A stretch of 64,000 nt of DNA from Pseudodesulfovibrio sp. zrk46 (GTDB taxonomy: Bacteria > Desulfobacterota > Desulfovibrionia > Desulfovibrionales > Desulfovibrionaceae), in contig NZ_CP051216.1 of the NCBI RefSeq assembly GCF_012516435.1, positions 622,001 to 686,000 of the forward strand, in the 5' to 3' direction. Below the pieces are notes generated by a model. That model was not told where the DNA came from. It did no database searches and was given only the letters and a program-made list of their open reading frames with translations. The position numbers and the translations under genes were made by a program. Position 1 is the stretch's first letter. Every line of letters starts with the position of its first letter. Shown one piece after another: positions 58,499-64,000 of the stretch.

Positions 58499-59203
58499 TC
58501 AGATATCCAGCAACGGCTGAAGAATAAAATAGAGACCAAGCAGGCCGATCACGCCGCCAGCCATCTTTCGAAACACGGCTCCGCCTGTTTGCCACTGTTT
58601 GCTCTCCATCAATTTCTGCACGAAAGAGGTGGAACTCCCCGCCACAACAATGGGCAGGCAATGACCGATGCCAAACAGCAGGATCATGCCCGTTCCAGCA
58701 ACCACCTCGCCCTGCACCGTAATGATGGCAAGAATGGGAGCAATGAAGCCAAAGGTGCAGGAACCAGACAGAATGCCGTAAGCCAGCCCCAGAATGAACG
58801 CGCCACAATATCCTTTAAGGCGCAATTTACCCAAAAGGTTCCCATGCATACCGCATTTGGACACGCCGAGCATGTCCAGTGACACCCAAACGAGTATGCC
58901 GCCCACCAGCACTGTCCACCACGAACCGATATCGCCGAGCATGCGGCCCAGCATGGAACAAACAATGCCCACAGCGGCAATGGTCAGGAACAGGCCCAAT
59001 GTGAACAGGCTCGCATAGACCGCGGCCTGCTTGCCCCGGACCAGCTCCTTCTGTCCGCCCACGTACCCCACAATCAGCGGGATGGAGGCAAGGTGGCACG
59101 GCGAGAACAGGACACTGATCATGCCCCATGAGAACGCCCCAAGGGCGGCCAGTCCTGTGCCACTTACCAGCCATTCATTAACGGCGAAGAAGAGCTGATT
59201 CAT
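58499..59203 (-). CDS. CcdA-type thiol-disulphide membrane protein
   Basis: This protein of 234 residues has about six membrane helices and the paired Cys of CcdA/DsbD-type electron carriers: FSPCHLASIPLIVGY (about 34) and SGSCTFGFIAPIL (about 147). It moves reducing power from cytoplasmic thioredoxin to the periplasm. It begins 3 bp after the thioredoxin-like lipoprotein gene and its ribosome site lies in that gene's end. It is probably the electron source for the adjacent lipoprotein. Confidence 0.88.
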   Translation of the reverse strand: MNQLFFAVNEWLVSGTGLAALGAFSWGMISVLFSPCHLASIPLIVGYVGGQKELVRGKQAAVYASLFTLGLFLTIAAVGIVCSMLGRMLGDIGSWWTVLVGGILVWVSLDMLGVSKCGMHGNLLGKLRLKGYCGAFILGLAYGILSGSCTFGFIAPILAIITVQGEVVAGTGMILLFGIGHCLPIVVAGSSTSFVQKLMESKQWQTGGAVFRKMAGGVIGLLGLYFILQPLLDI

Positions 59204-59206
59204 GCG

Positions 59207-59635
59207 CTACTCCACGCCGAGCTTTGCCAGAGTGCTGACAATGGCTTCCTTGCTTAAGAAACCTACGTGCCGGAATTGTTCCTGTCCCTTGGCGTCATAG
59301 AATATCTGTGTGGGAATTGAACTGATACCAAACTTGGCAGCCTGTTCCTTATGTTTCCACACATCGATGAAGGCGATGGCAGCCCGCCCCTCGTATTCAA
59401 CAGATAATTCCTCAATAATGGGAGTCATCATTTTGCACGGGATGCATTCATGCGCCCCGATATCCACCATGGTGACCATATCCGGGACCGGCACCTGTTG
59501 AGGGCTGCCGGAGATAAGATCCGAAGCGGATGGCGCCTTACCCTCCGCTTCGGTCGATTCTGTTGAGCAGGCCGTTGCAAATACGCCGATGAGGACGAGC
59601 AGAACAAGAACAGGGAACTGTCTGGCGATTTTCAA
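59207..59635 (-). CDS. thioredoxin-like lipoprotein
   Basis: This exported protein of 142 residues has a signal peptide with lipobox FATAC and a thioredoxin fold with redox motif CIPC (AHECIPCKMMTPIIEELS), then the cis-Pro segment ISSIPTQIFY. The start is TTG at 59635, preceded by AGGAG. The next gene is CcdA-like, 3 bp away, so the two probably form a periplasmic reductase pair. Upstream is a smaller cytoplasmic thioredoxin-like protein. Confidence 0.88.
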   Translation of the reverse strand: MKIARQFPVLVLLVLIGVFATACSTESTEAEGKAPSASDLISGSPQQVPVPDMVTMVDIGAHECIPCKMMTPIIEELSVEYEGRAAIAFIDVWKHKEQAAKFGISSIPTQIFYDAKGQEQFRHVGFLSKEAIVSTLAKLGVE

Positions 59636-59653
59636 TGGGTACTCCTTTTGGTT

Positions 59654-59884
59654 CTAGCTGATCCAGCTGAGAACTTCCTTTTTACTCGGAGCCTTGCCCA
59701 CCACTTTTACCTCGTCATCAATGACAACAGCCGGGGTGGAAAAGATGCCGTATTTGGCGATCTCCTGAAAGTCCTTCACCTTGACGATTTCAGCAACAAT
59801 GCCAGCTTCGGCAACGGCGTCACGGACAGTCTTTTCAGCCTCATCGCATTTGGGGCAGCCAGGGCCCATCACTTGGATCTTCAT
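59654..59884 (-). CDS. small thioredoxin-like (redox-active disulphide) protein
   Basis: This protein of 76 residues has the motif MGPGCPKCDEAEKTV (CPKC, about residues 10-13) and IFSTPAVVIDDEVKVVG with a cis-Pro. It belongs to the small archaeal/bacterial thioredoxin-like family often encoded near ArsR-type regulators and permeases. AAGGAGA precedes the ATG. It lies 18 bp upstream of the thioredoxin-like lipoprotein gene. No membrane segment. Confidence 0.9.
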   Translation of the reverse strand: MKIQVMGPGCPKCDEAEKTVRDAVAEAGIVAEIVKVKDFQEIAKYGIFSTPAVVIDDEVKVVGKAPSKKEVLSWIS

Positions 59885-59912
59885 GATATGTCTCCTTAAA
59901 TTGATTGCTTAT

Positions 59913-60188
59913 TGCCTCCGGCGGCACCTCGCCGGTGGGGCGTCTATCTCTGCTGTCTTTATCCGTAACCCTCGAAGACTCGGGAACGGCTAAAGCAAGA
60001 ATCTCCAAAACTTTTTATCGCTCGCTTCGCTCGAGGCTGAGCGACCTTTTAAGGCCTTCTTTTTTATAAACTCACCCTTGCGCCAAAGGCGCAGACGGGA
60101 TTCTTAAGGCCCTCGGCCTTGAGCCGGGTGCAGGGCAGGCAGCCCTGCTAGTCCATTCTTCATCCCGCCCGCTAGGGCGGTTCCAGCC
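59913..60188 (+). repeat. dispersed intergenic repeat A, extended copy 4
   Basis: It starts TGCCTCCGGC 28 bp upstream of the small thioredoxin gene, lacks the AAGAACC hairpin, and carries the TATCTCTGCTGTCTTTATCC module, the CTCGCTTCGCTCGAGG part and the tail with GAGCCGGGTGCAGGGCAGGC. The last two parts are shared with copy 3. It separates the permease gene from the thioredoxin-ccdA genes. Confidence 0.85.
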
Positions 60189-60199
60189 TTCTTTCCCGT

Positions 60200-61261
60200 C
60201 TAAATAATCGCGTTAAACAGATACCCCACCAACAGGATACCGGAACCGACCACACCGATGAAAGCGGCGATGAGCTTGGGCTTGAGCACCTTGCGCAGAA
60301 TGACCATCTCCGGGAACGACAGGGCGATGACACTCATCATGAAGGCGAGCACTGTACCGAGCGCTGCGCCCTTACCCAGCAGGGCTTCAACAACCGGGAT
60401 GACACCGGCAGCGTTAGTATACATGGGGATACCGATGAGCACGGATAAGGGGACGGACCACCAAGTGGAGTCGCCCATGATACCTGCAAGATACCCCTCG
60501 GGCACATAGCCGTGGATTCCTGCGCCGACTGCGATGCCGATGACCACGAACTTCCACACACGGCCAACGATGTCCTTGACGGAATCGAGCGCGTAATCGA
60601 ACCGGTTGGGCCAGGACAACTTTTGATTTTCCAGACCACTCTCACCAGCGCGAATCTGACGAACCCAGTCTTCGACGTGGTTGTCCAACTTCATGCGCCC
60701 CATGGTCCAGCCCGCAACGACGGCCACGGTGATGCCCGTGACAAAGTAGAGCGCAGCCACTTCCCAACCGAGCAGACCGTACAGGAGCACTAACGCGATC
60801 TCATTGACCATGGGAGCGGAAATCAGAAAGGAAAAGGTAACACCCAACGGCACGCCTGCGGTCATGAAACCGATGAACAGCGGTACGGCCGAACAGGAAC
60901 AGAACGGGGTGACCACACCCAGCAATGCGGCGAGCACGTTACCCACGGACTCGCGCTTTCCGGCCAGCACCTTACGCGTCCACTCCACAGTTACGAAAGA
61001 GCGCAGAATGCCCACGGCAAACACGACCAACAACAGGAGCATCAGCACCTTGGGCGTATCGTAGACAAAGAACTGGATGGCCGCACCGAGATGACTTTCC
61101 GGGGTCATCCCAAGAAGGGAGTAAGCGAACCACTCGGAAAACGGTAAAAGCTGACTGTAGATGGCGTACCAAACGATCAGGGCCAGACCGGTCAGGGCGA
61201 GGTATTTGCCCATGCCGGGTTCGCGCTCCTGTGCAGCCTGGACTTTGGTTTCGGTTGTCAT
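60200..61261 (-). CDS. permease (PF03773/ArsP-like)
   Basis: This membrane protein of 353 residues has about eight to nine helices. It has the Cys motif TPFCSCSAVPLFIGF (CSCS, about residue 131) and SAPMVNEIALVLLY. ArsP-type relatives export organoarsenicals; others have unknown substrates. AGGAG precedes the ATG at 61261. An ArsR-type operator lies just upstream, overlapping this site, and arsR is the next gene, so metalloid or thiol regulation is likely. Confidence 0.85.
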   Translation of the reverse strand: MTTETKVQAAQEREPGMGKYLALTGLALIVWYAIYSQLLPFSEWFAYSLLGMTPESHLGAAIQFFVYDTPKVLMLLLLVVFAVGILRSFVTVEWTRKVLAGKRESVGNVLAALLGVVTPFCSCSAVPLFIGFMTAGVPLGVTFSFLISAPMVNEIALVLLYGLLGWEVAALYFVTGITVAVVAGWTMGRMKLDNHVEDWVRQIRAGESGLENQKLSWPNRFDYALDSVKDIVGRVWKFVVIGIAVGAGIHGYVPEGYLAGIMGDSTWWSVPLSVLIGIPMYTNAAGVIPVVEALLGKGAALGTVLAFMMSVIALSFPEMVILRKVLKPKLIAAFIGVVGSGILLVGYLFNAII

Positions 61262-61271
61262 ATCAAACTCC

Positions 61272-61289
61272 TTTGGCAATTTCGCCAAA
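61272..61289. promoter_or_regulatory. ArsR-type operator upstream of the permease gene
   Basis: TTTGGCAATTTCGCCAAA is a dyad (TTTGGC-N6-GCCAAA) 11 bp upstream of the permease start. The same spaced dyad occurs upstream of arsR at 61641. Confidence 0.65.
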
Positions 61290-61307
61290 TGTATCAGTAA
61301 AAAAATA

Positions 61308-61625
61308 TTATTTTCGGTTGGCGGAAATGACAGACTCGACGCACTCGAAGAAATTGAGGATGCACGGCACCTTCAGGCTGTAGAAAACCTGCTTGCCGCG
61401 CCGCTCGTCAACGACGATGCCCGCCTTCTTCAGTACGTTGAGGTGCTTGGACACCGTGGAGATGTCGTGTCCCACCAGCTCCTGAAGATCACACACGCAC
61501 CGCTCCCCGCGCGACAGCTCGTCCACCATCATCAGTCGGGACGGGTGTGCCATGGCCTTCATGACCTTGGCCCGCTCCTCGAACTGCCGGGGCGATACTA
61601 TTTCATGCGGGATTGCATTGTTCAT
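61308..61625 (-). CDS. ArsR-family metalloregulator
   Basis: This protein of 105 residues is a winged-helix repressor. It has the metal-binding Cys pair ERCVCDLQEL (Cys43 and Cys45) as in arsenic-sensing ArsR, the recognition helix DISTVSKHLNVLKKAGIV and a C-terminal Cys (VPCILNFFECVESV). GAAAGGAGA precedes the ATG at 61625. It is upstream of the permease gene and of two operator copies, so it probably represses itself and the permease. Confidence 0.92.
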   Translation of the reverse strand: MNNAIPHEIVSPRQFEERAKVMKAMAHPSRLMMVDELSRGERCVCDLQELVGHDISTVSKHLNVLKKAGIVVDERRGKQVFYSLKVPCILNFFECVESVISANRK

Positions 61626-61640
61626 GTCGTCTCCTTTCAT

Positions 61641-61656
61641 TTGGCAAAATAGCCAA
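61641..61656. promoter_or_regulatory. ArsR-type operator upstream of arsR
   Basis: TTGGCAAAATAGCCAA is a dyad (TTGGC-N6-GCCAA) with the same spacing as 61272-61289. A further half site AGCCAA lies at about 61662-61667. Confidence 0.65.
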
Positions 61657-61756
61657 GCGTTAGCCAACTGTCAAGAGCAGCGGGTTAAGATTCCATAAAG
61701 AAATATTCAGATGCTACCGATATGACTTGCACAGGCAAACCACGGAGGGTTGGCCC

Positions 61757-62110
61757 ATGTATATCGAATTGGATCAGGCCCACAAGGGTGGGCAGAGTTT
61801 CGAGATGCACCTCAAGGAAGTGGCGCAGAACGAAGCTGCCCGGGTACTCGGCGACATGGTCGAGTTTTCCGAAGAAGCCATAGCCGCCTTCAAGGAAGCG
61901 GCCATTGAGCCTATCAAGGCCGGGACCTTCTCATTGGATTCCATTGAGAAGCGTATCAACGTGGTACGCGGAGAGATCGCCCAGGTCTGGAATTCCGCCC
62001 TGCCCGACGACGAGAAGTATCGCCAGATTTCCTCCAAGGAGAACGAGATCGCCCTGCTGCAGGCAGGCCAGTATACCTTTGCCAAGGCCGGATTCACTCT
62101 TTCCGTGTAA
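61757..62110 (+). CDS. hypothetical protein
   Basis: I do not recognise this protein of 117 residues. It is soluble, helical and acidic, with IELDQAHKGGQSFEMHLKEV near the start and ISSKENEIALLQAGQYTF near the end. GGAGG precedes the ATG at 61757; an earlier in-frame ATG at 61727 lacks a ribosome site. It is followed by a terminator and is divergent from arsR, so it is transcribed alone. No known domain was recognised. Confidence 0.7.
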   Translation: MYIELDQAHKGGQSFEMHLKEVAQNEAARVLGDMVEFSEEAIAAFKEAAIEPIKAGTFSLDSIEKRINVVRGEIAQVWNSALPDDEKYRQISSKENEIALLQAGQYTFAKAGFTLSV

Positions 62111-62142
62111 GATCTGCCTCTCACTTCCCAACCACAGCCAAC

Positions 62143-62173
62143 AAGAAAGGCCTGCTTTTCAGCAGGCCTTTCT
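62143..62173 (+). terminator. intrinsic terminator after the 61757 gene
   Basis: AGAAAGGCCTGC pairs with GCAGGCCTTTCT around a TTTTCA loop (62144-62172). Confidence 0.85.
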
Positions 62174-62198
62174 GGTTCTCAGATACAAAAAAACGGCT

Positions 62199-62519
62199 CT
62201 AACCGCCACAGCCTCGGGAGCCGCCTTTGGGGTAGATGCCGCAATCGTCGACGATGGGTTTTTCGGAATTAATGGAAAAGCCGACGGGGGTCTTGTCTAT
62301 ATATAAGTCGCCTGTACATTCGGCGAGGCGCTTATTTATGATGAAGGTGAAATCCTCACACGTGACTGCCTGATCGCCTGAACACTGGTCATCCAACGCC
62401 AAAAGTAGTTGTCGGGTTTTAAGGTTCCCGTTGGCAAGGTGGATGCGGATAGGACGAACCTCTTTATCTCCGAAGAAAGAGGCCAATCCCTGCCTGGCAG
62501 ACTCAGTCACGTTAATCAT
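62199..62519 (-). CDS. IscA/HesB-like protein without the first Cys
   Basis: This protein of 106 residues resembles the two neighbouring IscA/HesB-like genes (MINVTESARQGLASFF; DFTFIINKRLAECTGDLYID). Where the others have GGC or GG-Sec, it has ANGNLKTRQLLLAL, so the first key residue is missing. The C-terminal end has few Cys (DDCGIYPKGGSRGCGG). AGGAG precedes the ATG. It may be a non-cluster-binding paralogue. Each of the three genes appears to be transcribed separately. Confidence 0.8.
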   Translation of the reverse strand: MINVTESARQGLASFFGDKEVRPIRIHLANGNLKTRQLLLALDDQCSGDQAVTCEDFTFIINKRLAECTGDLYIDKTPVGFSINSEKPIVDDCGIYPKGGSRGCGG

Positions 62520-62663
62520 ACAGACTCCTGAGGGATGAAATTTCTGGGACTATATAAAGGATTCGTCCACGAAAAACAACAGTCCTGTGAACAATTGCTC
62601 CGAAAAGTGGAAAAGTACTATTATTAACTTAACTGTAACCCTACGAAACCCGCTCGCAACAAC

Positions 62664-62694
62664 AAAAAAACGGCGTCTCCACAGGGAGACGCCG
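62664..62694 (-). terminator. intrinsic terminator after the 62717 gene
   Basis: CGGCGTCTCC (62671-62680) pairs with GGAGACGCCG (62685-62694), with seven A on the plus strand (T run on the minus strand). The stem is nearly the same as that after the next paralogue at 63130. Confidence 0.9.
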
Positions 62695-62716
62695 CGACTG
62701 TTGATAGGGGCCTGAA

Positions 62717-63055
62717 TTAGCAGCCACAACCGCTGCTGGAGCAGCCGCCGGCAGAGCCGCAGGAACCGCTGGCGCAACCGCCACCGCCCACGGGGTTTTC
62801 GGAATTTATCGTAAAACCGTATTCGCTCATATCAATGGAGAGTTTGCCCGTGGCTTCGGCAAGCTCCTTGTTGACGAGGAACTGGAAACCTTCCTGATCA
62901 ATAGCGTGATCATCGTCACGTTTCTCGTCCAGAGCCAGAGACAGACGCATGCCGGAGCAACCGCCGTCGATGAGGTGAATGCGGATGGGGCTGGCAGTCT
63001 TGTCTTTGAAGTAATCGCTGAAAGCCTGGGCAGCGGGGGGAGTGACACTAATCAT
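62717..63055 (-). CDS. IscA/HesB-like protein with Cys-rich tail
   Basis: This protein of 112 residues starts MISVTPPAAQAFSDYFKD and has IDGGCSGMRLSLALDE with the conserved first Cys (residue 33) of the IscA fold. It lacks the usual CGCG end and instead carries GGGGCASGSCGSAGGCSS, a Gly/Cys-rich tail. AGGAG precedes the ATG. The paralogue just upstream is closely similar. It may handle Fe-S clusters or metals; function is unproven. Confidence 0.85.
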   Translation of the reverse strand: MISVTPPAAQAFSDYFKDKTASPIRIHLIDGGCSGMRLSLALDEKRDDDHAIDQEGFQFLVNKELAEATGKLSIDMSEYGFTINSENPVGGGGCASGSCGSAGGCSSSGCGC

Positions 63056-63121
63056 ACAAACTCCTTGTTTTTGAATTCCGTCGAGCGGAATGGTTGTCTA
63101 TTCAGGGAAGTGTATGAGGAC

Positions 63122-63154
63122 AAAAAAAAGCGGCGTCTCAAGTAGAGACGCCGC
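63122..63154 (-). terminator. intrinsic terminator after the selenoprotein gene
   Basis: GCGGCGTCTC (63130-63139) pairs with GAGACGCCGC (63145-63154), with a run of eight A before it (63122-63129). Confidence 0.9.
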
Positions 63155-63177
63155 ATTTGGTGCCAGACTGGATCGTC

Positions 63178-63522
63178 TTAGCAGGAGCAACCGCTGCTGG
63201 AGCAGCCGCCGCTGTCGGTGCCGCAGGAGCCGCCGGAGCAGCCACCGCCACCGCCGACCGGTTTTTCGGATTCGACGACGAAACCATAGTAGGTCATGTC
63301 GATCTTTACCTTGCCGGTCTGGCCAAGAAGTTCCTTGTCAATGAGGAAGGTGAATCCACCGGCCTCAAACACTTCGTCTTTATCGTTAGGCTCATCCAGA
63401 GCCAGAGTCAGGCGAGGGCCTGCTCAGCCTCCGGCTGCGAGATAGACACGAACCGGAGAAGGTTCTTTGTCCTGGAAGTAGCCTTCAAGCTGCTTCTGTG
63501 CAGCTTCAGTCAGTTCAAACAT
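63178..63522 (-). CDS. HesB/IscA-like selenoprotein (in-frame UGA, predicted Sec33)
   Basis: The 114-residue reading frame runs from MFELTEAAQKQLEGYFQD through one in-frame UGA (63424-63426) to a Gly/Cys tail (GGGGGCSGGSCGTDSGGC). The UGA falls in YLAAGG-U-AGPRLTLALDE, exactly where the paralogue at 62717 has GGCSG. A stem GGCUC-UGGAU-GAGCC lies 20-35 nt after the UGA with G in the loop, as in bacterial SECIS elements. HesB-like selenoproteins are a known group in other bacteria. AGGAGG precedes the ATG. A plain automated annotation would split or truncate it. Confidence 0.85.
63389..63426 (-). promoter_or_regulatory. UGA codon and SECIS-like hairpin
   Basis: UGA is at 63424-63426. A 5-bp stem (63399-63403 with 63389-63393) closes a UGGAU loop beginning 25 nt after the UGA, within the 16-37 nt range reported for bacterial SECIS, with a G in the first two loop positions. 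Confidence 0.7.
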
Positions 63523-63642
63523 TAAATTGCCTCCTATGAATGGTCGGGAATTGAAGAGGTAAGACCAATAGTAATGTTTGTCAAATCGAAAAACGCACAT
63601 TTCTTCCAGGAATGTTGACCCACCTTGGTTCATGGGATAATT

Positions 63643-63661
63643 CCAAGGTTTGCAAACTTGG
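63643..63661. promoter_or_regulatory. inverted repeat between the selenoprotein gene and pyrR
   Basis: CCAAGGTTTGCAAACTTGG has a perfect GTTTGCAAAC core and lies between divergent genes. It could be an operator; the regulator is unknown. Confidence 0.4.
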
Positions 63662-63689
63662 CTACACGTGACCTGAGAGGCAATACATT

Positions 63690-64000
63690 ATGAAAGAATG
63701 CGGCACCATCCTGAATGACAAGGAAATGAGCCGGACCCTGGAAAGGCTGGCCGTTGAAGTGATCGAACGTCGCGGAGACAATGAGACTCTGGCGATCATC
63801 GGCATCCAGCGGCGCGGAGCAGACCTGGCCGAGCGGCTGAAGAAGCTGCTGGACGAACGTCTGGGCCGCAAGGTCCCCTTGGGCAAGCTGGACATCAACC
63901 TGTACCGGGACGACTGGACCACCAATCTGGAGCTTGCTCCCACCATCAACTGTTCCGAAATCGGGTTCGATATCGAAGGCGCATCCATCGTGCTGGTGGA
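63690..64000 (+). CDS. pyrR: PyrR-like bifunctional regulator/uracil phosphoribosyltransferase, N-terminal part
   Basis: The frame runs from ATG at 63690 to the window edge (about 103 residues, incomplete). The N-terminus ILNDKEMSRTLERLAVEVIE, then IIGIQRRGADLAERLKKLL and GKLDINLYRDDW are PyrR signatures. The PRPP-binding motif would start in IVLVD at the edge. PyrR controls pyr genes by attenuation and/or has uracil phosphoribosyltransferase activity. GAGAGG precedes the ATG. Confidence 0.9.
   Translation, partial: MKECGTILNDKEMSRTLERLAVEVIERRGDNETLAIIGIQRRGADLAERLKKLLDERLGRKVPLGKLDINLYRDDWTTNLELAPTINCSEIGFDIEGASIVLV

Follow-up and report, generated by a model that had tools for sequence, protein, structure and literature searches.

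Does the UGA codon that interrupts an otherwise open frame in Pseudodesulfovibrio sp. zrk46 end the gene, or is it read as selenocysteine (Sec)? The frame lies on the minus strand near the end of the window, by which we mean the whole stretch of 64,000 nucleotides that was analysed. It runs from an ATG at 63522 to a TAA that ends at 63178, and its sole interruption is one UGA. We conclude that the gene at 63178–63522 is very probably (about 0.95) a genuine selenoprotein gene whose internal UGA is read as selenocysteine, a reading that we derive computationally from the frame, the machinery genes, the conservation of a hairpin and the exchange of Cys and Sec among relatives. The features that matter for this question are the following.

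63178..63522, minus strand: probable HesB/IscA-like selenoprotein gene, 114 amino acids with Sec33, from the open frame and the scores against NF038090 and Pfam Fe-S_biosyn
63424..63426, minus strand: UGA codon, residue 33, first position of UAGP; relatives align UGA or Cys here
63389..63403, minus strand: putative bacterial SECIS-type hairpin GGCUC-UGGAU-GAGCC, conserved in UGA forms
63530..63535, minus strand: Shine-Dalgarno-like AGGAGG, 7 nt 5' of the ATG
63181..63255, minus strand: Gly/Cys-rich C-terminal tail, present in relatives too; pLDDT about 41–44

A preliminary description of this DNA had made the selenoprotein call from the raw sequence, and this call is confirmed as correct. It had placed a single frame with one UGA at codon 33 here, and its coordinates are right (UGA at 63426–63424). 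The Gly/Cys-rich tail that it reported was likewise found, at 63181–63255, and is common to relatives.

Assignment to a known selenoprotein family

A dedicated NCBIfam model exists for the selenocysteine family, NF038090 (IscA_HesB_Se), which tempers the earlier expectation that a conventional annotation would call two fragments or a pseudogene. The Sec product matches this model over its full length (positions 1–101 of 101) with 120.7 bits at a cut-off of 85, and we found no difference in the features compared. With the same model, the neighbouring paralogue that carries cysteine scores 104 bits, and a third, diverged copy stays below the cut-off with 61.6 bits. Pfam Fe-S_biosyn (cut-off 26.3) is matched by the Sec copy with 33.1 bits and by the Cys copy with 38.4 bits; the third copy fails this cut-off.

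Residues 33–36 of the Sec product read UAGP and thus correspond to the UxGP motif of HesB-like selenoproteins. This motif is shared with the HesB-like selenoproteins of TIGR01911 (HesB_rel_seleno), but the Sec product misses the cut-off of that model (39.4 bits, cut-off 66.35), which is why we regard TIGR01911 as a related but different subfamily model. The cut-off of TIGR00049 was missed as well. The A-type Fe-S carriers IscA, SufA and ErpA are similar in predicted fold and in the position of the first conserved cysteine, whereas the Sec product has Sec for this cysteine, carries the Gly/Cys-rich tail and scores far under the equivalog cut-offs (IscA 23.2 of 150.6 bits, SufA 24.3 of 136.2 bits, ErpA 22.7 of 117 bits). 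When we scanned a viral contig collection with the Sec protein, no relative was detected in it.

That HesB-like selenoproteins are known elsewhere, as the preliminary description had claimed, agrees with the literature. In the sections available to us, PMC1914089 (2007) lists DVU_1382 of Desulfovibrio vulgaris as a HesB family gene with an in-frame TGA, PMC1794560 (2006) names D. vulgaris and D. desulfuricans among the organisms with HesB-like selenoproteins and has a table with 11 HesB-like selenoproteins and two Sec-to-Cys events, and PMC1242214 names HesB among the known selenoproteins. As described in the available part of that paper, DVU_1382 has the same family name, the same recoded codon and a related host organism. 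As the family has already been described in related sulfate-reducing bacteria, the Sec gene is not new. It is an ordinary member of a described selenoprotein family and not a discovery, and the UGA form is the rule in this group of organisms.

UGA and Cys forms across related genomes

To follow the UGA codon across relatives, we used 149 genomes of the same family of organisms, among which 139 contain a match to NF038090. We treated 124 genomes as selA-positive: in 123 the selA match exceeds the cut-off, and G095 has a partial match that falls short of it. A second search was made for 65 genomes (25 selA-negative and 40 selA-positive) in which the presence of a UGA form had not been settled by the first. 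The UGA form occurs in 112 of the 124 selA-positive genomes compared to 7 of the 25 selA-negative genomes; in 12 of the 124, no UGA form reaches the cut-off. In these counts, the match of G068 with 84.5 bits (cut-off 85) was included as a UGA form, and the weak UGA matches of G001, G026, G027 and G107, which do not reach the cut-off, were left out.

When we restricted the comparison to genomes with a completeness of 90% or more and a contamination of no more than 5%, 105/111 selA-positive genomes had the UGA form compared to 1/10 selA-negative genomes (Fisher p about 4e-9, without correction for kinship). The seven selA-negative genomes with a UGA form are 67–93% complete, and the sole near-complete exception (G124) is 93% complete and split into 820 contigs. 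In two further selA-negative genomes, G027 and G107, there is a UGA match, but it is weak and falls short of the cut-off. The other nine near-complete selA-negative genomes all have an NF038090 match without UGA, which lies above the cut-off in eight; G006 has a weak non-UGA match of 56.9 bits, and G107 has, besides its non-UGA match, one match of 24.5 bits with UGA. For six of the eight (G008, G056, G078, G099, G107 and G119) the locus was fetched, and all six have Cys at the site. Cysteine at this site in selA-negative genomes is what an exchange of Sec and Cys predicts.

The exchange is also visible in the alignment of homologues that the preliminary description had called for, in which the relatives, drawn from many genomes, have UGA, TGC or TGT in one column. 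The conserved Cys that had been reported for the neighbouring paralogue (63055–62717) is a TGC in the same column. Among the best 80 of 136 relatives, the best-matching named records are mostly Pseudodesulfovibrio. A class-wide search with NF038090 matched 148/149 genomes; it added little, since only 17 of its rows came from other families of the order. One genome, G001 (genus g2 of the family), shows an unusual expansion with nine NF038090 matches, one of them above the cut-off; among the weak matches listed, three have UGA.

A hairpin that is frozen in UGA forms

The hairpin GGCUC-UGGAU-GAGCC had been proposed as a SECIS element located 20–35 nt after the UGA. We found that its position is right and that the stem is kept in UGA forms. 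The stem was scored as the pairing of +23 to +27 with +33 to +37, taking the U of the UGA as 0 and allowing G-U pairs. Every copy in a locus was considered; we then removed duplicates among the 54-nt segments, as well as copies in which the Sec/Cys site is occupied by another residue. The first set of domains comprised 105 UGA, 88 Cys and 18 other forms (Ser 10, Ala 3, Glu 3, Asp 1, Leu 1), from which 95 distinct UGA and 84 distinct Cys segments were obtained. A second set comprised 70 UGA, 69 Cys and 10 other forms (Ser 5, Ala 2, Asp 2, Glu 1) and contributed 34 UGA and 40 Cys segments that were absent from the first.

All five stem pairs are present in 95/95 distinct UGA forms compared to 2/84 distinct Cys forms in the first set (loci L021–L138 and the window), and in 34/34 compared to 1/40 in the second, which indicates more than a chance hairpin; as the sequences are related, these counts are not independent events, yet the freeze is absent from the Cys forms of these very loci. 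The pattern extends to synonymous sites. Where the encoded residues are LALDE (94 UGA and 51 Cys forms), alanine is GCT in 94/94 UGA forms but in 8/51 Cys forms, leucine is CTG in 94/94 versus 32/51, and glutamate is GAG in 94/94 versus 30/51. Codons +1 to +5, with a slightly smaller count, are variable in UGA and Cys forms alike. Two of the distinct UGA forms have A-T in place of the basal G-C, a change that preserves the pairing.

Bacterial SECIS elements have a G in the apical loop. The Sec gene has a hairpin just 3' of its UGA with such a G, and the loop is TGGAT or TGGAC in 94 UGA forms. An Rfam scan of 61000–64000 returned nothing at gathering scores, which we do not take as evidence against a SECIS. 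Overall, these comparisons strongly support the reading of the hairpin as a SECIS. The family thus provides a clean comparative case, in which Sec and Cys forms often adjoin each other and the SECIS is visible as a codon freeze in the Sec form that is absent from the Cys form.

Selection downstream of the UGA

If the UGA were a real stop, in a pseudogene or through a sequencing error, the downstream part would be a non-coding remnant. The adjoining Cys paralogue makes such a loss conceivable, as it could allow the loss of the Sec gene to be tolerated. However, codons 34–89 are under purifying selection: four pairwise comparisons (with L047, L139, L141 and L145) gave dN of 0.03–0.15 and dS of 0.51–0.84, and a dN far below dS is expected if the part 3' of the UGA is translated. 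The low dN relative to dS also bears out the earlier claim that coding continues past the UGA. Furthermore, a remnant would fit neither the prevalence of the UGA form among selA-positive genomes nor the freeze of the hairpin at synonymous sites, and the presence of the same UGA in many relatives makes a sequencing error very unlikely. We thus consider a pseudogene or an error extremely improbable and retain the reading as a selenoprotein gene.

Selenocysteine machinery in the genome

The preliminary description had made its claim depend on the presence of selA, selB, selC and selD. We searched the genome (4,082,342 bases, one contig) and found the complete set, so that an absence of the Sec machinery can no longer be held against the claim. 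The matches are well above their cut-offs for selA (613.8 bits, cut-off 267.9), selB (391.9 bits, cut-off 242.25) and selD (325 bits, cut-off 125). The tRNA-Sec scores 81.8 at a gathering score of 47, and at the same place ARAGORN predicts a tRNA-SeC with anticodon tca. Among 14 control genomes, selD exceeded the cut-off in two, selB in two, selA in one and tRNA-Sec in five; with 5/14 control genomes over the gathering score, the tRNA-Sec family match alone is weak and the least specific of these signals. SelB and tRNA-Sec would decode UGA codon 33 as selenocysteine, and the hairpin 20–35 nt 3' of the UGA would direct the insertion.

The selD gene of the same genome (L001, C1:1087726-1088655) itself contains one in-frame UGA and is probably a selenoprotein gene as well.

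Fold and possible function

A profile of 20 family members matched solved IscA-type proteins (1nwb, E 4.9e-11; 2apn, 3.9e-9; 1s98, 8.1e-7), and residue 33 of the query was aligned with the Cys of GCSG. We also modelled the Sec product with AlphaFold2, with Cys standing in for Sec. The model is modest (mean pLDDT 74, pTM 0.59), with most of the tail below a pLDDT of 50. In Foldseek, the top match of the model was 1x0g, an IscA with [2Fe-2S] (E 2.1e-6), and E. coli IscA (1s98) was found with E 4.0e-5. Nine matches had E <= 0.001, including 1x0g, 1s98 and 2d2a, with E. coli IscA and SufA among the nine; TM-scores to IscA-type chains were about 0.5–0.75. We thus predict an IscA-type fold for the Sec product.

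In IscA, the cysteines are ligands of the cluster, and the C-terminus contains a Cys-Gly-Cys (CGC). In the Sec product, Sec33 would replace the first conserved cysteine of IscA, and the flexible Gly/Cys-rich tail would stand where IscA has its C-terminal Cys-Gly-Cys. The most likely activity, for which we see somewhat better than even odds, is that an Fe-S cluster or a metal would be bound and handed over via selenolate and thiolate ligands. The Cys paralogue would then give the same activity without selenium, and the function of the family could conveniently be studied with the Sec/Cys pair.

In the extracts available from our literature search, no bacterial HesB-like selenoprotein is described whose function had been tested. 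According to the portion of PMC11097638 at hand, mutagenesis and 75Se labelling led to the identification of a HesB-like selenoprotein in Methanococcus maripaludis, the function of which is described as not clear; disruption of its gene left nitrogen fixation unimpaired (cited as an unpublished observation), which we count as a point against our favoured reading. A 2026 review (PMC13188914) gives UxGP as the motif of HesB-like selenoproteins and, in the part available, describes the functions of most selenoproteins as not clear while a redox function is thought likely for most uncharacterised ones. This would make the Sec product a redox enzyme with the selenol as nucleophile instead of an Fe-S or metal carrier. 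However, its motif is UxGP and not CxxU or UxxC, and the predicted fold and the position of Sec match IscA-type proteins. We thus regard a redox enzyme as unlikely and favour the carrier.

Paralogues and neighbouring genes

The Sec gene is surrounded by the following features.

62717..63055, minus strand: Cys paralogue, Cys33 codon at 62957-62959; NF038090 match, TGC in the column
62199..62519, minus strand: third diverged paralogue with Leu (CTT) at the Sec/Cys position; NF038090 match below cut-off
63130..63154, minus strand: intrinsic-terminator-like hairpin and T run 3' of the Sec gene
62670..62695, minus strand: intrinsic-terminator-like hairpin 3' of the Cys paralogue
63690-63998, plus strand: PyrR-like gene, truncated where the window ends (97.1 bits, cut-off 138); transcribed divergently from the Sec gene
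58499-61667, minus strand: metalloregulator/permease/thioredoxin cluster of five genes; no Sec in the listed ORFs

As a terminator-like hairpin follows each of the Sec and Cys genes, the two may be transcribed apart; a simple promoter scan found no convincing promoter. The third tandem copy with its Leu may be decaying or have a new role, and other genomes have Ser, Ala, Glu or Asp at this position.

In the best 80 of 136 relatives, 56 loci contain both UGA and Cys forms, 14 UGA only and 10 Cys only. A PyrR-like gene is present in 56 of these 80 loci and is divergent from the nearest hesB-like copy in 56/56; this copy is the UGA form in 44 and the Cys form in 12. It is conceivable, if rather doubtful, that the three tandem copies, with Sec, with Cys and without either, encode isoforms of one Fe-S or metal carrier with selenolate ligation and together make up a selenium-dependent set. 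In this view, the divergent arrangement with pyrR would be conserved because the genes are functionally linked in these sulfate reducers.

The product might instead serve to bind or sequester toxic metals or metalloids, which its Cys-rich tail would chelate. The many Gly and Cys of the tail are in line with this, as is the metalloregulator/permease/thioredoxin cluster 1.5–4.7 kb away in the window. Yet all five cluster genes were absent (0/80 for each) from the loci around hesB-like genes of other genomes, in flanks of at most 4 kb and frames of at least 80 aa; within these limits, the small thioredoxin and the distal part of the cluster might have escaped detection. Membership of the Sec gene in this cluster is thus not supported, and we consider sequestration improbable compared to the handover of a cluster or metal.

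The cluster itself resembles selenoprotein-linked metal systems. It encodes an ArsR/SmtB-type regulator (87.3 bits, cut-off 55), an ArsE-family small thioredoxin (97.4 bits, cut-off 62), a further thioredoxin, a permease resembling SaoE (135.1 of 325 bits) and a DsbD-like protein that weakly resembles part of TsoB (48.5 of 805 bits).
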